Shown here: positions 1-62,800 of the stretch, in pieces
How positions within the stretch are numbered: the first letter of the stretch is position 1
How the letters are laid out: every line of letters begins with the position of its first letter
Source of the DNA: Cenococcum geophilum 1.58
Taxonomy: Eukaryota; Ascomycota; Dothideomycetes; Gloniales; Gloniaceae
Direction of reading: 5' to 3'
Assembly (NCBI GenBank): GCA_001692895.1
Contig: KV748257.1
Coordinates: 186,001-250,000, forward strand
DNA length: 64,000 bases
Notes under the pieces: model-generated
What the model was told of the DNA's origin: nothing
The model's database searches: none
What the model saw: the letters and a program-made list of their open reading frames with translations, nothing else
Program-made: the position numbers and the translations under genes

Positions 1-1274
1 TATTAACGCTGTTACCGTTAAGAACTAATATCTAATCCCGTTAATATAGGAGATACTAAACTAACTAAGTAAGGCTCGCTATTATATAAAGCTTAATATT
101 ATCTCTATATTTAACCGCCTCCGTATAATGAAAGGAGACAAATAGCTTACTACATTTCGTACTTAGTATAGATTATTTAAATACTTAGTAATGCTATTTG
201 GCCTAATAAATACTCTAAGCTCGTTTTAATATTATATAAATAACACCCTACGTCCCTACCTAGATATCTTCTATACTGCTTATATTAACGACATCCTAAT
301 ATATAGTAATAACCTAACTAAATATTGGGAATATGTTAACTTTATTTTATAAGCCCTGCATAAAGCTAGTCTATAATTAAATATAGATAAATACGAGTTT
401 TATAAAACGGAAGTTCTATACCTTAAACTCCTTATTTTTATAAATAGTATATAAATAGACCTAAAGAAAGTTAAAGTAATTATAAACTGGTAAGAACCTA
501 AGAACGTTAAAAATATAAGAGCCTTTATAGGATTTGCCAATTTCTACTAACAGTTTATTAATAACCTTTCCGCCCTAGTTTTACCCTTTATTACTTTAAC
601 CTAAAAGAATAAAGCTTTTATCTTTAATAAGGAATATAAAAAGGCCTTTACTTATCTAAAGGTTATATTTACTACTACACCTATACTCTAATACTTTAAC
701 CTAGAATAAATAAGTATTGTAGAAGCCGGCTTGTCTAATTACGTTACTAGAGGTATTCTATCTTAATATAATAAAGAAGGAGTATTATACCCCATAGCAT
801 ACTTTTTTAAAATAACTAAGCCCTGCCGAATATAATTATAAGATCTATAATAAAGAATTTCTAGCTATTATTAGATGCTTTAAGTAATAGCGACCTAAAC
901 TAGAAGGCGCCAGATTTCTAATTAAGGTCCTTAGCGACTATAAGAACCTATAGTACTTCACAACTATAAAACAGCTAAGTTATTATTAGGCCTACTAGTT
1001 AGAATATCTATTACACTTCTAATTCTTAATTACGTACCGCCTAGGCGTTTAAGGTTAAAAGCCTAATGCCCTAACCTAATACTTATAAGATACGCCAGCC
1101 CTAAAAAAAGCGTGCTCTTACTAAAATTAAACCCTACTTCGCCCTAAACTATTTAACCCTCCTACTAAAGGCTTTATAGTACACGTCCTTAAAATAACTA
1201 ATTAATTAATTAAACAGATTATAGTTAACGAATACCTAAATAACGAGTTTATTTAAGAGACGCTTAAGCTAATC
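1..1274 (+). mobile_element. Ty3/Gypsy chromovirus fragment (C family): RT and RNase H
   Basis: This stretch runs collinear with the RT-RNase H part of element C (about 10218-11490) from its first base. It is cut by the window edge on the left and by the 3' end of LINE D at about 1274. It is a broken fossil with many disruptions and a heavy TpA excess. Because LINE D sits inside it, and chromovirus A sits inside LINE D, it is the oldest layer at this end of the window. Family assignment rests on near-continuous nucleotide similarity to C; integrase and LTRs are not present. Confidence 0.88.
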
Positions 1275-1784
1275 TATAATATTACTTACTAATATCTCTT
1301 TACTAGGAGCCTAGTAGGAGTTACCTCCTTCTATAGATCCTGCTGTTATTAGCCACTTTCTAGTAGCTATCCCTATCCTACTTAGAAATAGAAAAAGCGC
1401 CTCTCTTCCTTTTTATGTACAAAATAGCTTTTCTAAAGAGAGAGAAGAGCTTAGTTTCTTTTGCATTTCTCTTCTTTCTTCTCTATATAGGTTATAGTCT
1501 AGTAGTAAATGCCTAGGGGTTTATAGTACTCTATATACCCTAAAGTATCTACTATCTTTATCCCCCCCTATTACTTTAGAGAAGGATTTAAAATAGCCTT
1601 TTAGGATATTTATCCTTAGGGGCTTTAAGAGAAAAGGAATAACTTCCTTTATAGATCCTAGTATAGTATTTTTCTTTATTTTTATTCTGTTGCTAGTTGT
1701 TTTTCTACTATTTTAGTATCTTTTCTCTTGCTGCTCTCCTTATATAGGCTAGGGAGGTATAAAAACATTATAGTTTTCTTCTAA

Positions 1785-2195
1785 AAAGGCCCTTTTTAGC
1801 TAGCTTATCTATTATTTCGTTTCTATAGATTCCTAGATAGCTAGGAACCCAGTAAAAGTTAATAGAGATCCCCTTATTAGCTAAATAGGAACAGCTTTGC
1901 GTAATTTTAAAGACTAGTTCTTGCCCCCTATAAGAGAATTAAGCTATAATCTCTTAATAGCCGCCTAGCTATCTATAAAGATATAGACTTATTTCTCTTC
2001 TAATCTTTATTATTTTAGGTGTTCTAGAGCCCTATAGACTGCATAGATCTCTATATTTATAATTTCTATATAGAGTCCTAAATTCCAGTTCGTTGCATAT
2101 TTAATCCTATTTCTCTCCCCTATTTTATATACGGCAGCTATATTAAATTTATTGTCTTTAGAGCTATCTATATAGTATATATTTACTAAGTCCCA
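1785..2195 (-). pseudogene. RNase H domain of LINE D ORF2
   Basis: The minus strand reads YYIDSSKDN, then EIINIEIYAVYRALEHL, then YVYIFIDS followed by AAIKRL, and finally FYWVPSYLGIYRNEIIDKLA. These match the order of the retroelement RNase H active-site blocks: the first Asp in a TDGS-like block, a Glu in E-x-YA, the Asp of TDS-x-AA, and the WVPxHxGIxxNExAD block. Stop codons and substitutions at TpG/CpA sites break it. The domain lies downstream of the RT, as expected for I/Tad1-type LINEs, and is separated from it by the solo LTR. In a live element it would remove the RNA template during target-primed reverse transcription. Confidence 0.85.
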
Positions 2196-2384
2196 CTCTA
2201 GGGATTCTTGTAGATTTTCTACTAGTCTTAGATATTCTTATGCAGCTTCTTCCTTACTACCTTTTAAGATAGAAAAGGATGCAGAAATAGGGGGAGACTA
2301 CGGTTTTGCCATTTTAGAGAGATTCTCTCTATTTTCCAATTTTAAATTAGCTGCTAAACTCTAGAGGTTAGAGATAGTAGCTAT

Positions 2385-2836
2385 TGTCAATGATAATCTC
2401 TGATGTTGCTTATGTAAGCATTACATAAGAACACCCTGGAAGAACCCTACGGCTTTACGCGGTGTATTAGATGGTATCAGCTAGTGTATCAACTAGTGTA
2501 TTAACTAGTGTATCAACTAGTGTATTAGATAGTATTAGCTAGTGTATTAGCCAGTGTATTAGGTAACGTATTACCTAGTATATCAGGTAACGTATCACCT
2601 AGTGTATTAGGTAATGTATCACCTAGTGTGTTAGGTAACGTATTACCTAGTGTATTAGGTAACGTATNAGAATACGAGACGGAACGTAGACGTTCTGGAA
2701 CTAGGGTCTTCCAGGTATATAGAGACTCGATCCCCCGTAGATAGACATCATCAATTGCATCAAGTTTATCCACTTCACTTACTTCACTACATTGTTCACC
2801 CTGTCGTCCTCCGACCTCCGCTTACGCAAATTAACA
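2385..2836. mobile_element. Solo LTR (unknown family) inside LINE D
   Basis: This is a 452-bp insert with TG...CA ends (TGTCAATGATAATC at the left, GCAAATTAACA at the right), flanked on both sides by the 5-bp duplication GCTAT (2380-2384 and 2837-2841). LINE D sequence continues on either side. It keeps many CA and TG dinucleotides, so it is much less mutated than its host and younger. It matches none of the three LTR types seen elsewhere in the window. No internal coding region is present, as expected after LTR-LTR recombination. A single N lies at 2668. Confidence 0.75.
2478..2670. repeat. 24-bp minisatellite within the solo LTR
   Basis: About eight units of a roughly 24-bp motif occur in tandem, in the form GTGTATTAGGTAACGTATTA with variants. 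Each later unit contains an imperfect inverted repeat, GGTAA-cgta-TTACC; the left units are the related form CAACTAGTGTATTAACTAGT. Because 24 is divisible by 3, the minus strand has an 82-codon open frame with an 8-residue period (TLPNTLGN). I read that frame as a by-product of the repeat rather than a gene. Confidence 0.85.
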
Positions 2837-2949
2837 GCTATATCTTTAGCTATAAAAGGTACTTTATAGTAGAGTTTTTAGGGCTAGAACTAGAGCTAGA
2901 ACTAGCTGCTAATTCGTTTCTATCTTTATTAATCTCTTCTATACAAACC

Positions 2950-4950
2950 TTCTTAATTACGTAGTTTTCCTTAAATTTTAGGATTCTTAATACGTAGTTA
3001 TTGCAAAGCTTTTTTAATCTAATTCTAGGAGGAGGAATAGAGGCTTTAATCTCTATAGCTTAGCTAGGAGATCCTCTAAAAGCTCCTAGAACTAGTCTTA
3101 GGGCCTTATTTTATAGAGATTGGTACCTATCTAGTAGGTAGTCTCTAGATTTGCTTTTCCACTAGCATTATACTCCGTAGTCTGCTATAGTAGTAACGTA
3201 AGCTATATAGAGCTGTTGTAGGGCTTATAGAAATAGACCTTTTTATATATTACCTAGCCTTCTAATTAAATAGAAAGCTGCTATTGTTTTAGAGATTTGT
3301 ATTTTTATATATTGTTTAAAAGTAAGCTTAGAGTCTAGGAATACCCCTAACTACCTAACTAGGGGTTTAGGGGATATTTCTACGTCTCCTAGCTTTAGCC
3401 CTTCTTCTATAGTAGTACGTTTACTATAGAAGTATATAAGCTCTATTTTGATAACGTTAAAACTAATAGCAGCTTCTTTAGCTTTAGATATTAGCTCTAG
3501 CGCTATTCTCTCTAGCTTTTTGCAATTAGACTTAGTAGAATTTAAAGTAACTATAATTGCAAAATTGTCTATATAGCTAAGAGAATAGGCTCCTTCTGTC
3601 TGTATACTATAGATATTGCGTATATATAGTAGAAATAAAATAGGGGATATAGGCGATCCCTATAGTATCCCTGTTTCTAATTTAACTTTTTCTTATATTT
3701 GCCCATTAAAGGAAAGCTGTAGCTTTCTATTGATAAGGAAAGTGGCTACCTATTATATAATCGCTATAGGTAGTCCTAGTTCCTTATAGATAGATAGAAG
3801 CTGGTTTTTAAAGATATAGTTAAAAGCCCCTTTTACGTCTAGGAATAACGTAGTAGCTATCTTTTGTCTAGCTTTTTTCCTACTATTTTTAGATTGGATA
3901 TTATTTAGAAGTAGTAAGACTGCGTCTATTACGGACTGCTGTCTTCTTCCTCCTAATTAAGAGTCTTAAAGTAAGCTAGTAGTACTAGCTAGATATTCTA
4001 ATATAGTAGTAAAGATCTTTTCTAGAGTCTTTCCTAGGTAGTTTAGTAAGGAGATAGGTCTATAGGCCTTTAGTAAGGAATAGTCCTCCTTATTTACTTT
4101 AGGGAGAATAACTCCTTAAGCTTCTCTCTAGATCTTTAGCTAATAGCCTAGAATAAACAAAATCCTATAGATTCTATATAGAAGATCTTCTATAATAGGG
4201 TAGGCTTTATATAAAATTATAAAAGATATCCCATCTAGTCCTGGAGCCTTTTTATTAAAGTTAGAGAAAATTGCTTATTTGACCTCTATTTTCTCTAGTT
4301 CTGGCTATTTCTATTTATTGTCTATTATATAGTCCTTCCACTTTATAGAGCTAGTAGAAGGGGGGGGGTTTTTAGGAATAGAGTAGTTATAAAAGCTTTG
4401 CACTAGTCCTTAAAGCTTTATACTAGTCTAGTAGTCCTATTCTTACTATACTGTAGACTAGGGATTATTCTCAATGTTCTCTCCTTTGTGTATTTTAGGG
4501 CAGTAAAGACCTCCTTCCCTTATGCTTTTTCTAGGAAGCTATTCCAGCAGCTAGTCTTAGCTTCTCTTATTATATAGAAGTATTAATTTTTAGTTTCTTT
4601 ATAGGCTTCTAGTCTAGAACTTCTAGTAGGCTATTCCTCTTAAAGTCTTCCTAGTTTTGCCATTTTTCTTTTCTTTTCTTTAGAAGCTCCTTATTCTACT
4701 ATAGTTTAGATAATTTACAAGTTCTAGATCTAGGGATAGCTTTCTCTACTACTAGCTTTATATAGTTAGTAAGATCTATTACTAGATTATCTACTAGTAT
4801 ACTTAAGCTTCTATCCCTAAGTCTATATAAATCTTTTAAAGAGGCTAGGAGACCTTTTTCTCCTATCTCTATCTAGGGGTTTTCTCCTACTAGTTCCTTT
4901 AGTACTAAAAGTTTTACTTCTAGTTCTAGCTCTAAAACTTGCTCTTTTAA
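2950..4950 (-). pseudogene. Reverse transcriptase region of LINE D ORF2
   Basis: On the minus strand, the GSPISPILFLLYI block (about 3625-3665) is the LINE form of the QGSP-x-SP motif, and SYIDNFAI (about 3555-3585) is the position of the catalytic YxDD. Regions upstream on the minus strand, up to about 4300, carry the RT fingers (motifs 1-2a), with linker sequence beyond. Multiple stops, mostly at CpA-derived positions, show that it is inactive. The reading continues into endonuclease sequence that is interrupted at 5214 by chromovirus A and resumes at 24659. Confidence 0.8.
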
Positions 4951-5214
4951 AGAAGTAGAGAAAATCTCCCAGTTTGCCTTTTTTTATAGAGAAAGGAGTT
5001 TCTTAAAGAGGGTTTAGGTATCTTTACGTCTCTCTAGTAAATAGAGAGAATGCTATAGTCTTGTAATCAGATCTTATATCTTCTATTATAGTCTAATTAT
5101 CCTAGGTATTTTCTTAAAAGTTTCCTAAGTAAAAGGCTAGGTCTATAATAGACTTTTCCCTTATATTAGATCTATAAAAGGTCCCTTCCTATTTATTTAA
5201 ATTTAGTAGTTAGC

Positions 5215-33020: not shown

Positions 33021-35113
33021 TTTTTTAATTCCTTTATTATCTATTATATTATACTACGTATAATACTACGCATGCAGCCTTAGGCTATAGCGCTATAGTT
33101 CTATATATATAAATCCTTTCTAGGCAACTTAATATATACTAGTAGCTATGTCCTAGTAGTTTATAAACCCCTAAATTAGGAGTTTATAGTTTCCTAGTAA
33201 AATACTAAGATACTATAACTACTAGGGAATAAGAAAATGGTAAGAAAAAATATAAGAAATCCTAACCCCTATCCCTATCCTTTTATAATTTATTTCTATT
33301 CTTTTACTCTCTAATATCTCTTTAAGAGCCTAGTAGGAATTACCTCCTTCTAGAATCCTACCTGTTTTATTCTTCTATAGAATCTTCTTCGCGTACTAGT
33401 TTAGCAGCTTTAAGAGTCTTACAGTCTTTACTATTAGTAAAGTGTTTTTCTTTATAATTAATACAAAGAGGGGTAGTATGCTAGTAAGGCTTACCTATTA
33501 TTATATAGGTAGAACAGGAATAGTCTTTAGATAAATATATAGCTGCATAGTATTTATAGGCCCTAGTAGAGCACCTATCTCCTATATAGCCAAATTTTTA
33601 GCAGCTTATATACTGCGTAGTAGGAGAGACTTTAAGGTATTTTACTACCTTAGTAGCTATACCTGCAATTAATATCTCTTTTTACTTAAGAATTTCTTAT
33701 CTTTTTTCTTTATTCTTTATAGTAAAAACTATAAAGCTAAATCTAGTCTATAGATCGTGTCTTCTTACACTAAATAAGATCTATTTAGGTAGTTTTTATA
33801 TACTTATAGGATTAAAGGTCTTAATTTCTTCTTTTAGAAGCTTAGAGCCTCCTTCTCCTAAAAAAGGTAGGGTAGGAACCCTATAGGCTATAATTTAAAC
33901 ATATAGTTCTAGTTTTTATTCTCTTTAAAAGGTAAAGCAGTTATTCCAGATTTTCTTATATTTAACTAGGAAATCCGCATTATACTCTTTTATAGTTATA
34001 AAGAAAATATTTTATTTTTCTTTAGTTCTAGCTATAGATGCTAAAACTAGTTTTTCTACTTATAGTTTTAATATAAATAGTTAATTAACTTTATTTTATA
34101 TAGAGAAGGTATCTAAAAATTAGTCCTTTTAGTCTGTAATTAAAACTAGCTTTTTTTTATAGCTACTTTTTCTTACTTCTAGTAAAAGTAGAAGGAGTAG
34201 GAAATAATAGTAATAAGGAGGGTAGAGAGGACAAAGTAGGGAGGTCCTTCTTTAGCCTCTTTACATAGGTTTTTTTTAGTAGGGGCTACTTTCTTATAGA
34301 AAGCTCTTGCTTCTTTAACTAGTCCTTTTAAGATTTTTTTATCTTTTCTTTTCCTTTTATAAAGGGATTTTCTCCTATTAAAATACTATGTATATAGTCC
34401 TTTAGCTATTTAACTTATTCCTTTTTATCTTCTTCTTTTTCTTCTTTTAGTCTTTTATAGGCCTAGGTTAAGCTATCTAAAGCCTTTTATAGGTGTTATT
34501 TTAGAGAAAGGGGAGAGAAAGATATACTAGGTATACTAGCCATAAAAGTTCTTATTTTAGTTATCTTTTTTTATAGGTTTTTAGTTTTCTTTTTTAGTAG
34601 AAGACTTAAAAAAAATTCTCTTATCCTAAATAGGCTAGGAGAAGGAGAAGGGCTAGAAAAAGTAAATGTAGATATAGACTTATTATTACTTATTTTTATA
34701 AAAGGTTTATTTTTAAGCCTGCTAGGCCTTAGCATTTTATATCTTATAGGGGGGTTTTCCTAGTTTTTACTATCCTTATACCCTTTCTTCTTACTAATTC
34801 TACTAAAAGATTTCTAGGGAGATTAGGCTAAGAAGTAGTAGAGAAACTAGCCCCTATTTTATAGTTTTTAGTATTAGTAGTAGTGGTAGTAGTTTTAGTA
34901 TTCCTATTTATGCCTTACTTATAAGCTAGGGCCACCCTTAGAGAAATTTTTTCTATTAGGAAAAGGGGGTAAAATAATAAATAAATCCACCTCTGGCTCG
35001 CTAGGCAGTAGGAATTAGGTCTTAAAAGTTAGAAAATCAATTGTTTTTAATAGTAAAATAGGTATGCGTAAGTTTTAGAGTGTGGTACTACCTTTTAGTA
35101 AGGTTATATATAA
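33021..35113 (-). mobile_element. ORF1-only LINE, copy 1 (left arm of palindrome)
   Basis: This minus-strand element of about 2.1 kb is inserted in F. Reading from its 5' end at about 35113: 5' UTR of about 350 bp, an ORF1 (about 34740-33370) with coiled-coil and zinc-knuckle regions, a 3' UTR, and a T-rich (A-rich on the sense strand) tail at about 33021-33040. Copy 2 has the same two ends, so the short form without ORF2 looks like the real unit rather than a chance truncation. Heavily RIP-mutated; the knuckle CxxCQKFGH is still readable near 33570-33615. Its 5' end abuts the 5' end of copy 3 head to head. Confidence 0.82.
33370..34740 (-). pseudogene. ORF1 (LINE gag-like) of copy 1
   Basis: This is the same reading as ORF1 in copy 2: a Ser/Pro-rich N-terminus, a Glu/Lys-rich coiled-coil stretch, an RNA-binding middle region and three CCHC knuckles. 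The sense strand near 33600 gives SCQKFGHIGDRCSTRAYKYY. Numerous stops arise at CAA/CAG/TGG-type sites. ORF1 proteins of Tad1-like LINEs bind element RNA and form RNPs. No endonuclease or RT follows on the same strand: between this and the tail there is only about 330 bp. Confidence 0.78.
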
Positions 35114-35325
35114 AACCTTTACTATATATATAACCTTACCAAAAGGTAGCGCCATACTCTAAAACTTACGTATACTTATCTTACTATTAAAAACAAATAA
35201 TTTTCTAACTTTTAAGACCTAATTCCTACTGCCTAGCGAGCCAGAGGTGGATTTATTTATTATTTTACCCCCTTTTCCTAATAGAAAAAATTTCTCTAAG
35301 GGTGGCCCTAGCTTTTTATATATAT
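34922..35325. repeat. Core of a large palindrome (head-to-head 5' UTRs)
   Basis: The sequence from about 34929 to 35113 is matched in reverse complement by about 35116-35314, differing almost only by C/T and G/A changes. The centre is GGTTATATATA - aaacctttac - TATATATATAACC. The arms continue outward as copy 1 and copy 3 of the ORF1-only LINE, so this is the middle of an inverted duplication of at least 1.4 kb per arm, not a short transposon with terminal inverted repeats. Confidence 0.9.
35114..35314 (+). mobile_element. ORF1-only LINE, copy 3, 5' UTR part
   Basis: This is the plus-strand 5' UTR of copy 3. It is separated from its ORF1 by insertion of copy 2. The last 13 bp (GTGGCCCTAGCTT, 35302-35314) are the left target duplication of copy 2. 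It joins directly to 37491. Confidence 0.85.
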
Positions 35326-37477
35326 ATATATATATATTTTTTTATATCCGATTGTATTATACTACGTATAATACTGCGCATGCAGCCTCTAGGCTATGGC
35401 GCTATAGTTCTATATATATGAATTCTTTCTAGGCAGCTTAATATGTACTAGTAGCTATGTCCTAGTAGTTTATAAACTCCTAAACTAGGAGTTTATAGTT
35501 CCTTAGTAAACCCTAAGTTCCTACAACTACTAGGGAATAAGAAAACAGTAGGAAAAACTATGAAATCCTAACACCTGTCCCTGTCCTTTTGCAATTTATT
35601 CTGTCCTTTTACTCTCTAATATCTTTTTAAGAGCCTAGTAGGAGTTGCCTCCTTTTAGAATCCTATCTGTTTTATTCTTCTATAGAATCTTCTTTACGTA
35701 CTAGTTTAGCTGCTTTAAGAGTCTTGCAGTCTTTACTATTAGTAAAGTGTTTTTCTTTACAATTAATGTAAAGAGGGGTGGTATGCTGGCAAGGCTTGCC
35801 TGTTATTATACAGGTAGAATAGGAATGGTCTTTAGATAAATGTGCAGCTGCATAGTATCTGCAGGCTCTAGTAGAGCACCTGTCTCCTATATGGCCAAAT
35901 TTTTGGCAGCTTATACACTGCGTAGTAGGAGAGACTTCGAGGTATTTTACTACCTTAGTAGCTGTACCTGCAATTAATATCTCTTTTTACTTGAGGATTT
36001 CTTGTCTTTTTTCTTCGTTCTCTATAGTAAAAACTATAGAGCCAAATCTGGTCTATGGATTGTGTCTTTTTTTACTAGATGAGATCTATCTAGGTAGTCC
36101 TTGTATCCTTATAGGATTAAAGGTCTCGATTTCTTCTTTTAGAAGCTTAGAGCCTCCCTTTCCTAGAAAAGGTAGGGTGGGAACCCTATAGGCTATAATT
36201 TGAACCCAGGGTTCTAGTTTTTGTTCTCTTTAAAAGGTAAAGCAGTTATACCAAATATCCTTATACTTGACTAGGAAATCTGCATTATACTCTTCTGTAA
36301 TTATAAGGAGAATATTTTGTTTTCCTTTAGTTCTAGCTATAGACGCTAGCACTAGCTTTTCTACCTGCAGTTTTGATACGAATAGTTAATTAACTTTGTT
36401 TCGTATAGAGAAGGTATCTAAAGGTTGGTCCTTTTCGTCTATAATTAGGACTAGCTTCCTTTCTTATAGCTGCTTTTTCTTACTTNTAGTAGAAGTAGTA
36501 CTCCTACTAGAAGGAGAAGGGGTAGGAGATNGTAGTGGTGGGGANGGTAGAGAGGACGAAGTAGGGAGGTCCTTCTTTAGTCTCTCTGCGTAGGTTTCTT
36601 TAGTAGAGGCTACCTCCTTACGGAGAGCTNTTACTTCTTCTACTAGTCCTTTTAGGACCTTATTTGCCTTTTCCTTTTCTTTTTCTTCTTCTTCTTCTTC
36701 TTCTTGTGTAAAGGGGGTTTCTCCTAATAGGATACTTCGTGTATAGTACACTAGCTATTTAACTTGTTCTTTTTTTTCTTCTCTTTTTTTTTTTTCTTCT
36801 TCTAGCCCTTTACAGGCCTAGGTTAGGCTTTCTAGGGCGAAGCTTAGATATTATTCTGGAGAAGGGGAATAGGAAGGGGAATAGGAAGGTATATTAGCCG
36901 TACTATCCGTAGTAGTCGTTGGTTTTATTGTCTTTTTTACAGGTTTTTGGTTTTCTTTTTTAGGAGAAGACTAAGGATGTTCTCTTTTTTCTCCTGTCCT
37001 AAATGGGCCAGGGGAAGGAGAAGGGGGAGAAAAAGTAGATATAGAATCCTCATCACTTATTTCTATAGGAGGTTTTTTTTTTAGACCTATTAGGCCTTGG
37101 CATTTTGTATCTTATAGGGGGGTTTCCTAGTTTTTACTACCCTTATACCCTTTCTCCTTACTAATTCTACTAGAAGATTTCTGGGGAGATTAGGCTAAAA
37201 GGTAGTAGAAAATCTAGCCTCTATATTCTGTGGTTTTGGTATTTGGTTTTGGTGTTCCTGTCCGTGCCTCGCTTATAAGCTAGGACCACCCCTAAGAAGA
37301 ATTTTCTGTTAGGGTAAAGGGGGTAAAATGATAAATAAATCCACCTCTAGCTCGCTAGGCAGTAAGAATTAGGTCTTAAAAGTTGGAAAATCGATTGTTT
37401 TTGATGGTAAGATGGGTATGCGTAAGTTTTGAAGTGTGGCGCTACCTTTTGGTAAGGTTGCATGTGTGGTGAAAGGT
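35315..37477 (-). mobile_element. ORF1-only LINE, copy 2 (youngest, 2163 bp)
   Basis: This minus-strand copy is inserted in the 5' UTR of copy 3, with a 13-bp duplication GTGGCCCTAGCTT (35302-35314, 37478-37490). It appears full length: a 5' end reading ACCTTTCACCACACATG on the minus strand, 5' UTR of about 370 bp, ORF1, 3' UTR of about 300 bp and a (TA)n/A-rich tail at 35315-35345. It keeps many CA/TG sites and is the least mutated of the three copies. It differs from copies 1 and 3 by several small indels. Four N positions (36486-36630) lie in ORF1. Confidence 0.88.
35640..37103 (-). pseudogene. ORF1 (LINE gag-like protein) of copy 2
   Basis: The likely start is the ATG at 37103 (MPRPNRSKKK). 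Next come a Ser/Pro/Thr-rich N-terminus, a Glu/Lys-rich coiled coil (EEEEEEEKEKEKANKVLKGL and then LRKEVASTKETYAERLKKD, within 36464-36751), a middle region resembling the RNA-binding part of Tad1-type ORF1, and three zinc knuckles. The first knuckle is CISCQKFGHIGDRC (about 35880-35921); CRYCAAAHLSKDHSYSTC and a CINCKEKHF block follow. A frame slip in an A-run after the start and a few stops make it a near-miss pseudogene. The protein would coat element RNA. About 490 codons is normal for a LINE ORF1; what is odd is that no ORF2 follows before the tail. Confidence 0.82.
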
Positions 37478-37490
37478 GTGGCCCTAGCTT

Positions 37491-59034: not shown

Positions 59035-59807
59035 TAGGTCTATAGGTATCACGTTTAGTTAAGGCAGGGCAATCCCCTGTAAATAGCCTTGCAAATATAC
59101 CCATTCTCAATTAATGCCTTTAAGCCCGTACCCACTAATTAGATTAATTAATCCTCTTCTCCGCAAGCATGTAAATAATAGATAGATATATCTATGTGGC
59201 TAAGCGAGCACTACAGCAGCACCCCTGCATCTTAGTAACACTAACATCATTAACATTTATAAAATTAAGCCTTGCTTGCTTACTTTCCCTCCCACTTATA
59301 CCTTTTTCTTTAGTTGCATATTTTGGGCTTTATAAATAGATACTATAGCGATATGCTTGCGTACGGGTCTATAGGTATCACGTTTAGTTAAGGCAGGGCA
59401 ATCCTCTATAAATGGCCTTGCGAATATACCCATTCTTAATTAATACCTTTGAGCCCGTACCCACTAATTAGATTAATTAATCCTCTTCTCCGCAAGCGTG
59501 TAAATAATAGATGGATATATCTATGTGGCTAAGCGAGCACTACAGCAGCACCCCTGCATCTTAGCAACACTAATATTATCAACATTTACAAAATTAAGCC
59601 TTGCTTGCTTGCTTTCCCTCCCACCTATACCTTTTTCTTTAGTTGCATATTTTAGGCTTTATAAATAGATACTATAGCGATATGCTTGCGTACGGGTCTA
59701 TAGGTATCACATTTAGTTAAGGCAGGGCAATCCCTTATAAATAGCCTTGCGAATATACCCATTCTTAATTAATGCCTTTAAGCCCATACCCACCAATTAG
59801 ATTAATT
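59035..59807 (+). repeat. Right repeat block B1-A2-B2-A3-B3 of the YR element
   Basis: TATAGGTATCACGTTTAGTT-type starts occur at 59041, 59370 and 59699, and CTATGTGGCTAAGCGAG at about 59192 and 59521. Both series are 329 bp apart. The standard Ngaro-type layout has one A2-B2 unit; here a second unit follows. Each unit includes about 80 bp (about 59285-59365) not found next to A1 or B1. The block is broken by LINE J at about 59808. Confidence 0.88.
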
Positions 59808-62800
59808 AATAATAATTCATTACTTAACGTCCGATTCGGATCCCTATTGGGCCTACGCGGACTACTCCTTATGTACATATGGGGAGAAAACTCTATTTAA
59901 GAAAACCCCGTGATCTATCTCCCTGCCTTTTGGGACTCGCCTACGAGGCGCCTACGAGGTGCCTGCGAGTCACCTGTGGTGCTCCTACTACCTTACTTTT
60001 TAACCTTCTTAGGAACTACTGCTGCCGTAACAAGCCTACAGACGCGTTAGTATCGCAAACTTTATTCTACTACTGTAGAGTCATTAGGGGGCACCCGTTA
60101 CTCACCCCCTTACCCTCTATTACCATTTCCCTTATAACCCGGAACTGGTTTAGTACATTTTAGCTAATAAGCCACTAGGTAACCGCCTTAAGGCCTTTTT
60201 ATATTAAGAGCAGTGTATTATAGTTCTCTATGCCCGCTACTAAAAGTATTACTTCTTAGTTGGTGCGTAAGGGGCATAACAGTATTACGTGTTTTGGTGT
60301 CTGTCTTAGCCAGCTATATTTATATCTTAGGTTACCTACTAGGACACCCACCCGGTAGAGCCAGTCTTTTAGTCCTATTATTCCTGTTCTTAAGAGTGTC
60401 GCTATTATATTTTCTACCTTTATTAGGCCTTTTCGGAGCCCTAGAGTATTTACCCCCCATAGCGTTAACTATGCTACGGCTTAGGTTCCTCTTGCCTTAG
60501 TTAGCCTCTATACCTTTAACTCCTATATACCTCTCCAGCGTTGGTCTAACCAGTATTATATTGCGGTAGATGGTTTCCTAGCGTTCTTTTATGCTCTGCT
60601 TTAGCTCCTTTCTCTCTCTTACTATTATCTTTACTAGCCTCTTACGCGTCTCCCTTCCTCCTCTATATGGGCCTAGGCCCTAAAGCAGCACCATTTTTCT
60701 TCTACTTTCTTTACCTATTTCTCTAATATATCTTCCCTACTTTAGGGTTGTTAGTTTATTCTCCTATAGGGCGCCCTAGGGTCCCTCCATAGTTTGTTTA
60801 GGCGTGTCTTAATATACTTTATAATATTAAAGTTACGTTTATTTTAGGCCCTTTATATTGCAGCGGCTTTAATATATAGTTATAGGGGGGGAATATTGGC
60901 TTCCTTCTTAAGCAGTACTGTGATCGTTCGCTTATATCCACCTATTATACTCCAAAGGTAGGCTATTTGGACCTTTTAGAGTGGTTTAAGGAGCAACTTA
61001 GGGGGGCCTTTCTTAGATTCTCTAATAGCCCAAATACTAGACCTATACGTCATGGTTAGCCAGACGACTGCTGTGTATAGTAGGCGTGACCTCTAGAAGC
61101 ATGGGCCCTATATAAAGTTGACGATCCTAGATAATGCGATATACTATACTTAGCCCTTGCGAGCCGCTTGCGCCGTATATACGCTCCACTAGAGCTTGCT
61201 GTCTACCCATACTCCTAATACCCTTAGGCCCTAAACTAGATAACCCCCAAAGCCTTAGATATAGATTATGTGCTAGAGATCTACAAATTAGTTACATTTT
61301 CTTATAAAATGGATTAGCTGGTATTTCTCTAGTAAGAATTAGACTCTATATCGTCTTGCCTATTCTATATAGGTGTTATAGGCTTTTTCTAGCATTCTGC
61401 AATTCTTTGCGGCTGATGGCCCGTATATAATTAGGTTTGTGTCGTTAACGAAGCCTATCCCCTAGGTCGCCCCTTCCTTAAAGGAGTTAAGTAGGTTACT
61501 TACGAAGAAAAGGAAGAGTATAGGCGAGAGGGGTAATTCTTATAGTATTCCTGTTATAACTACAATAGGGGGGCTCTAGTATCCGCTAAAGACTAGTAAT
61601 GTTTCTTTTTAACCTATAAACCCTTAGATAAATTATACAATCTATTCTAGGAAGCCTTTTGCCCTAAGGATATATAGGAGACGCTCGTAGGGCACGTTAT
61701 TGTAGGCGCCGCTAATATCTAGGCTAAGCATTAATACTACGAAGTCCCTTCGCATCGCCTATGCAGATTTAATAGTAGTAGCGAGTAGCGTAAGTGCTGA
61801 TAGTATTAAGCGGTTCTTTCTTGCCCCTATTTAGCTTTGTGGTAGTAGGGCGTGTTCCTTAGCCGTATCTGCTATGCGGTCCGCTATTACCTTTTCTAAG
61901 ATCTTGCTAAGGGTGTTTTTTAGGGCAATAAGGCGGTAGCTTTCTGGGATTAAGTAATCTACTTTACCTTCTTTTTATAGAACAACCGTCGTTATAAATC
62001 TTCCGAGTCGTGGGTAGTAGCCTATAGCAAAGTATGCTTTAGCTATATCCGTAAGCTAGGGTGCTATAAGTGGTCTATAGGTCTTTAAGGCCTTATTTAG
62101 AATCCTATCTGGACCTAGTGCTATATTATTTAAAAGGCGGCTAATAGTTCTGGCCATTTCCTCTGTTATTATGTCGCTGTCGACCCACAGGCGAGTCACC
62201 GGTGCTTCGCCCGTAATGTCACTAAGGTCTACTAGAGCTAGTTAGGGGAAGAACCTTTTTATAAGGATCTTTGCCTTCTTATCGTTATTATTAGTGGCCT
62301 ATAACTCCCTTGCTCTTCGTAGGGGTGGTAGATATAAGTCTTCTACTAGTCGCCCTGCCTTTTTCTTTACCTATTTCGCTATAGCCCATAAGCCCTTATT
62401 ATAAGGGAGGCTCGGGTTAAAAGTATGCTCGTTTATAAATCGTCTCCAGTTGTTCCTTACTTCTTTTTTTAGAGTATTCTTTAACTGGTTTCTTGTGTCT
62501 TTATATTATCTCTTATCTTTAGGGTTATAGCTACTTAAGTATTTCCTTCTTGCTTATCGTTAGCTAGCTATAAGAACCGCGCATTATACGGACTATATAT
62601 GTCGCGTATAGGGGCCCGGTCTTAAGACCGGGTAGTACTCTTCTAGCCTATTCTTAATCGCTGCCTAAATCCTTTCTAGTCTTCGGTCGATTTCCTTAGG
62701 GGTGGCTAATAAGCCTCGCTCGTTTAGTATTAGGTGGATTTCTTCTAGGTCTTAGAGTTGTTATTTAACTATATTAAGGAAACTGTCTGCCTTAAGTATC

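Follow-up and report, generated by a model that had tools for sequence, protein, structure and literature searches.

A probable ORF1-only LINE family in Cenococcum geophilum that appears to be copied by the ORF2 protein of a related LINE

Long interspersed nuclear elements (LINEs) that carry only the first of two open reading frames (ORF1, without ORF2) are already known from mammals (HAL1) and, functionally, from Drosophila telomeres (HeT-A). HeT-A encodes Gag only. The reverse transcriptases of TART and TAHRE have been called likely critical for its retrotransposition (PMC6114517), and HAL1 is a non-autonomous LINE derivative that codes for ORF1p only and has had several independent origins (PMC5753468). 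In fungi, EKA, Satine and Kryze of Blumeria graminis are LINEs with a cysteine-rich ORF1 and an ORF2 carrying reverse transcriptase (RT) and RNase H (PMC4641428); I-1_CH and I-2_CH of Cochliobolus heterostrophus are I-superfamily elements with an ORF1 of 463-513 aa and an ORF2 with RT and RNase H (PMC4112212); and pairs of short interspersed nuclear elements (SINEs) with LINEs have been tabulated, Mg-SINE with MgL/MGR583 and SINE2-1_BG with Tad1-24_BG (PMC3747384). Here we describe copies of an ORF1-only LINE, referred to as a half-LINE, in 64,000 nucleotides of Cenococcum geophilum 1.58 (contig KV748257.1, positions 186,001 to 250,000; this whole stretch is the window, and window positions are counted from its first letter).

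We consider it probable, at roughly 0.85, that the half-LINE is a non-autonomous LINE family that has lost ORF2 by deletion and is copied in trans by the ORF2 protein of a related two-ORF LINE, referred to below as the partner. A first, sequence-only reading of the window had proposed a fungal ORF1-only LINE that supplies its own RNA-binding protein and borrows ORF2. That proposal is supported overall: the borrowing of ORF2 gains from the existence of a partner with the same 3' tail, whereas the element's own RNA-binding protein fares less well, with no intact ORF1 in the copies read and a selection test that is small and mixed.

The half-LINE family numbers a few hundred copies, which have their ends in common and a characteristic length. 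When the full-length window copy (copy 2; 35315..37477, minus strand) was used as query against the genome (177.2 Mb, 162 contigs), 53 rows were returned, with 40 of 1669 candidates scored, and 36 of these rows, both window copies counted, span 2,063-2,163 bp. Such 2.1-kb copies are made up of a 5' untranslated region (UTR), ORF1 and ~330 nt of 3' region, and in the 20 copies whose target sites were scored, the match to copy 2 starts at base 1-8 (19 copies) or at base 11 (one copy). Both ends were also searched for with patterns that tolerate repeat-induced point mutation (RIP), a fungal process. The 5'-end pattern has 312 exact places in the whole genome and the 3'-end pattern 1056, against 0 and 0 for the reversed patterns that served as controls; relaxing the 5'-end pattern to 3 mismatches raises its count to 552, and the places listed are exact ones only, hence uninformative on the 5' end of the partner. 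The first 100 places were listed for each pattern, and both lists span contigs C1, C2 and C3 up to 2.26 Mb. On these contigs, 22 of 25 5' ends have a same-strand 3' end at 2,002-2,594 bp. Among the remaining three, one has it at 4,157 bp, with a second copy on the opposite strand inside, another has it 10,040 bp off, with a match to the deletion junction (described below) 9.7 kb downstream of the 5' end, and the last has no 3'-end match within 12 kb.

The check set by the sequence-only reading comes out in its favour: numerous copies are 2.1 kb long, share their ends and have no ORF2 between ORF1 and the tail, and there is no majority that runs on from ORF1 into an ORF2. Searches with ORF1, the best 150 matches being scored in each, gave 225 matches in total with identity down to 78%, and in one of these searches all 16 matches lying within the C1-C3 range of the 3'-end list run on to a 3' end 321-359 bp downstream. 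That the copies lack endonuclease and RT, another of its claims, held up as well: none of the 225 ORF1 matches has any of the 104 listed places of the partner's presumed endonuclease region within 5 kb downstream. A single ORF1 match (on C77) has a listed ORF2 match within 9 kb downstream on the same strand, which we estimate to be about as often as chance would give.

The half-LINE descends from a LINE that lost its ORF2, with a single founder junction. We aligned 11 of 23 half-LINE copies across this region with three partner-type sequences, one of which (L011; L numbers denote loci) shows no ORF2. In all 11 copies, sequence aligning to the last codons of the partner ORF2 (EGGNSY-stop) begins no more than about 20 nt after the ORF1 stop, single bases being changed by RIP in some copies. 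A junction pattern has 350 places in the genome at ≤1 mismatch, against 2 for its control, and on C1-C3, where 20 of these places are listed, 16 have the C-x2-C-x2-F-G-H knuckle motif described below 252-268 bp upstream. The retention of the last ORF2 codons points to an origin by deletion of nearly all of ORF2. The 3' UTR that the sequence-only reading had placed after ORF1 is present; what it overlooked is that this region opens with sequence alignable to the final codons of a LINE's ORF2.

Sequences with the expected properties of a partner are present in the same genome, where RVT_1 matches of LINE length occur. At L041, an insert truncated at its 5' end leads from the end of an ORF2 (EGGNSY-stop) through a 3' UTR, 81.6% identical to that of the half-LINE, into a poly-A tail. 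L047 has an ORF2 of the same kind, with Pfam matches to RVT_1 (E 4.8e-19) and to RNase_H (E 1.9e-5, 25.3 bits, slightly below the cut-off of 25.8). The C-terminal 172 aa of the L047 ORF2 served as genome query (best 150 of 646 candidates scored). Of the 17 matches within the stretch that the 3'-end list spans on C1-C3, 15 are followed by the same 3' end after 380-421 bp, and the other two lack one. Upstream of the RT lies a 121-aa segment that we presume, from its motifs, to be an endonuclease of the apurinic/apyrimidinic (APE) type; it occurs at 104 distinct places among the matches listed and stands in the same 820-aa open frame as the RVT_1 match on C50.

The partner seems to own an ORF1 of the same type. 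A RIP-tolerant C-x2-C-x2-F-G-H motif has 791 places in the genome against 296 for its control, so that about a third of the 791 may be chance. On C1-C3, where 10 presumed endonuclease places are listed, 9 of these have it 836-861 bp upstream on the same strand. These upstream knuckles lie in none of the 24 half-LINE ORF1 matches on C1-C3, 23 of which themselves hold the motif. A knuckle motif at a fixed place before ORF2, outside the half-LINE ORF1 matches, suggests a partner ORF1 that is of the half-LINE type and has diverged. An ORF2 with RT and RNase H is a mark of the I superfamily (PMC4112212), and by its RT, its RNase H and its type of ORF1 the partner would belong to an I/Tad1-like LINE lineage.

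The partner and the half-LINE share their 3' tail. Between L041 and the half-LINE copy L009, 48/48 and 48/50 positions are identical in the two final 50-column blocks of the 3' UTR (96/98 over the last ~100 nt), compared with 41/48 in the block before and 54-78% further upstream. The corresponding values are 44/50 and 47/50 after 41/48 for L041 with L028, and 41/48 and 49/50 after 44/48 for L011 with L009. The same two hairpins were found in all six tails folded, copy 2 included, and one base pair of the last hairpin exists in G-U, A-U and G-C variants. In stringent LINEs, such stem-loops are recognised by ORF2 (PMC4176376).

The copies also bear the marks of retroposition. Their tails are poly-A-like, consisting of runs of A with some T, and the longest word common to both flanks reaches at least 8 bp in 16 of 20 copies, as against 31 of 380 mismatched-flank controls; this count leaves out copy 1 of the window and two tandem copies at L017, which show 6-7 bp, the chance level. 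The duplications in the 16 copies are 8-14 bp long, and the base preceding them is T in 14. Poly-A-like tails, target duplications and a T before them are what target-primed reverse transcription leaves, and the features that retroposition of a half-LINE implies (common ends, tail and target duplications) are all present.

On C37 (811618-1094042), 7 of the 12 best-matching copies lie within 283 kb of one contig, and the four copies with a duplication of at least 8 bp have four different duplications. The tandem pair at L017:2594-6842 has an upstream copy that ends tail-less at element position 2099 (GCATG), where the next copy starts.

The half-LINE probably arose when a two-ORF fungal LINE underwent a deletion that brought the end of ORF1 next to the final few ORF2 codons and the 3' UTR. 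The shortened RNA would keep all of ORF1 along with the 5' UTR and the two-hairpin 3' tail. The ORF2 protein of a related two-ORF LINE would then recognise this tail in trans, presumably by way of the hairpins, nick the target and copy the RNA by target-primed reverse transcription, and the half-LINE ORF1 protein may have a part in packaging its own RNA. From these sequence comparisons the borrowing of ORF2 is a strong inference, while a need for the element's own ORF1 protein is suggested weakly. A fuller version, in which the half-LINE is a self-standing, long-lived ORF1-only lineage, dependent in cis on the ORF1 protein that it encodes and supplied with ORF2 in trans via a stringent hairpin tail, is tentative, with the odds leaning against it. 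If true, it would represent a natural split of the two LINE proteins in a fungal LINE, with ORF1 acting in cis and ORF2 not required to.

Read through its stops, the ORF1 frame has 478 codons in L009, 476 in L018 and 467 in L028. Its end region contains one C-x2-C-x4-H-x4-C and two C-x2-C-x3-H-x6-C motifs (L010), which we presume from their C/H spacing to be zinc knuckles. The zinc-knuckle label given to ORF1 in the sequence-only reading fits in this respect; the Pfam zf-CCHC model has 29 matches over the genome and none at the listed ORF1 places, so that it misses this family's knuckles, which owe their name to spacing.

ORF1 is broken in all 23 copies aligned, with 220 in-frame stops over 462 codon columns, and the breakage is caused mainly by RIP. 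Nearly all of the stops (215 of 220) stand at columns in which CAA, CAG, CGA or TGG occurs in one or more of the other copies. CA has changed to TA in 497 of 2323 cells, compared with 103/2891 for CC, 68/1176 for CG and 149/4091 for CT (3.6-5.8%), and TG has changed to TA in 226 of 2330 cells, compared with 3.9-6.7% in other G contexts. Since all 23 copies were broken by RIP, the half-LINE copies seen now are probably dead.

Among other explanations, separate chance internal deletions of full-length LINE copies would produce ORF1-only copies of this kind, and an ORF2-bearing relative with the same 3' end does exist. This is very improbable and in effect already refuted by the single common junction between ORF1 and the end of ORF2, which recurs at all the junction places and aligned copies counted above and is common to subfamilies that transversions separate; the length is uniform, and the target duplications differ between copies. 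A long SINE, or a non-LINE element such as a long-terminal-repeat (LTR) remnant or a miniature inverted-repeat transposable element (MITE), would be non-autonomous, and the A-rich tail and the 3' end in common with a LINE recall LINE/SINE pairs. A length of 2.1 kb with a 1.4-kb ORF makes this barely credible, as do A-rich tails combined with 8-14-bp duplications, the absence of LTRs from the copy ends examined and the absence of any Rfam match at the gathering threshold in the three loci scanned. A chimera has more in its favour: the 5' UTR and ORF1 of one LINE lineage may have acquired the 3' end of another via template switching at the last ORF2 codons. The knuckles upstream of the partner's endonuclease places on C1-C3 lie outside every half-LINE ORF1 match there, even though the ORF1 matches extend to 78% identity, and none of the 100 listed half-LINE 5' ends stands upstream of a listed partner ORF2 match. 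On the other side, a knuckle motif of the half-LINE's kind precedes the partner's ORF2 at a constant distance (9/10), and divergence after an old deletion accounts for the same facts; the chimera is unlikely.

Several results weigh against a half-LINE that codes for its own ORF1 protein and is copied by the ORF2 of this partner. The sharp rise of identity in the tail is clear for L041 with L009 and weaker with L028 or L011, and the hairpin energies are only moderately low relative to shuffles (z -1.74 in L009, -2.28 in L041). More than half of the listed 3' ends (55 of 100) fall to neither half-LINE nor partner, the presumed endonuclease segment has no Pfam match, and the partner's diverged ORF1 is placed by motif position only. 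Searches of Pfam and the PDB returned no convincing relative of ORF1, with no Pfam match passing a cut-off. To these are added several features of ORF1 that also favour a different account, in which the half-LINE is mobilised in trans in a SINE-like manner, with both ORF1p and ORF2p from the partner and its own ORF1 a passenger. No intact ORF1 was seen among the copies examined, the longest open frame among the matches listed being 266 aa. Transversions are not products of RIP, and in the N-terminal half only 9 of 31 shared transversion columns fall at codon position 3, no bias. Whole-ORF nonsynonymous/synonymous transversion ratios range over 0.36-3.35 and exceed 1 in 4 of 11 pairs. Eight ORF1 matches (C68:927274, C4:755717, C16:220487, C65:671, C82:486777, C82:332898, C84:621053 and C10:3052578) end at the same query residue, 101, and have the same stop pattern of one TAG and one TAA each; they may mark either RIP hot spots or a subfamily whose ORF1 was already broken when it spread. 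Against a passenger ORF1, the C-terminal half (element 1017-1808) has eight shared transversion columns, 6 of them at codon position 3 (p 0.02; a small count). Ratios for this half lie at 0-0.42 in all but one of the 11 pairs, the exception being L028 with copy 1 at 2.44; the pairs share branches and the counts are small, so the signal is slight as well as restricted to that half. Moreover, the stops are of the kind made by RIP, and the 1.4-kb frame stays in register across subfamilies. The selection signal favours, without proving it, an ORF1 protein that was functional in the past; the passenger account is unlikely, though a serious contender.

Within the window, the two minus-strand copies reported by the sequence-only reading lie where it put them (copy 2 at 37477-35315, copy 1 at about 35113-33043), as does the 13-bp target duplication that it assigned to one of them; a third, plus-strand copy had been overlooked. 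Copy 2 is 95-96% identical to full-length copies elsewhere in the genome. All of its parts are on the minus strand, beginning with the 5' UTR (element 1-371) at 37107..37477, which matches that of L009 at 97.8% over 371 bases. ORF1 occupies 35672..37103, its start being set by register with L009; it has 10 in-frame stops of RIP type, matches L009 in pieces at 89-91% (tblastn), with one 20-residue piece at 95%, and carries three C/H zinc-knuckle-like motifs close to its 3' end. The ORF2-end remnant and 3' UTR, common to the partner and aligned with the partner-type sequences, lie at 35343..35674 (97.6% to the L009 3' UTR), and within them folding places the two adjacent 3'-terminal hairpins at approximately 35352..35404, with the 3'-end pattern at 35352-35377. 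The A/T-rich tail follows at 35315..35342, and the duplication GTGGCCCTAGCTT flanks the copy at 35302..35314 on the tail side and at 37478..37490 on the 5' side. Copy 1 (about 33043..35113, minus strand) is heavily RIP-mutated, with 24 in-frame stops and 82% identity to copy 2, and shows no target duplication above chance (6 bp). The third copy lies on the plus strand in two parts, its 5' part (element about 1-201) at 35114..35314 with 85% identity and the rest (element about 185-1443, no match beyond) at 37478..about 38690 with 78% identity at the DNA level. Copy 2 is inserted into the third copy, splitting it at about element position 185-201, and copies 1 and 3 stand head to head, forming a nested, palindromic cluster with copy 2 inside copy 3. 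Single N bases are dispersed in young copies, at 36486-36630 here and at many other loci (L014, L015, L022), with up to 26 per copy.

The window also holds a degraded minus-strand copy of the partner at 1270..5188, matching L047 ORF2 pieces at 56-78% and the L041 insert at 65-74% (tblastn). Its presumed endonuclease lies at 5188-4826, its RT at about 3863-3171 and its RNase H/C-terminal region extends to 1314; the start of the shared 3' UTR at 1347-1270 gives a 79-base match at 78%. A 12/24-bp minisatellite (2462-2667) interrupts its ORF2. The right part of the window (39906-63510) is crowded with several degraded copies of another LINE, of the L038 type, with endonuclease and RT matches; as a source of ORF1, L038-type LINEs gave no tblastn match with the half-LINE ORF1 at E up to 1. 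A 329-bp unit is repeated 2.4 times at 94% in 59037-59810.

A non-exhaustive search of CC-licensed PubMed Central, with Repbase outside it, turned up no report of an ORF1-only LINE family from a fungus. Among fungal elements, the Avrk1-like repeats of Blumeria come close, in that 1 of 34 full-length fragments has RT-RNase H domains in the 3000 bp downstream; they differ in being treated as truncated or degenerate copies and as effector sources, and the consulted portions of that paper describe no common junction or tail-sharing partner (PMC4641428). The tabulated fungal SINE/LINE pairs likewise couple a non-autonomous element with a fungal LINE, but those SINEs are tRNA-related (PMC3747384), whereas the half-LINE has a 1.4-kb ORF and, in the loci scanned, no Rfam match. 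I-1_CH and I-2_CH differ as two-ORF elements of 5.7-5.8 kb (PMC4112212). HeT-A is telomeric, unlike the half-LINE, whose copies are dispersed and have target duplications. By analogy the half-LINE most resembles HAL1, which would likewise be an ORF1-only LINE that arose by deletion and then spread. The functional likeness is separate from lineage: HAL1 comes from mammalian L1, and the half-LINE from what appears to be an I/Tad1-like LINE with a knuckle-bearing ORF1 and a conserved hairpin tail, in a RIP-marked genome. The fungal half-LINE would add to HAL1 and HeT-A a case in which the deletion junction is defined, copies number in the hundreds, a likely partner LINE sits in the same genome and conservation is higher in the tail than elsewhere in the UTR, and so a clean setting in which to ask which of the two LINE proteins has to work on the RNA that encodes it.

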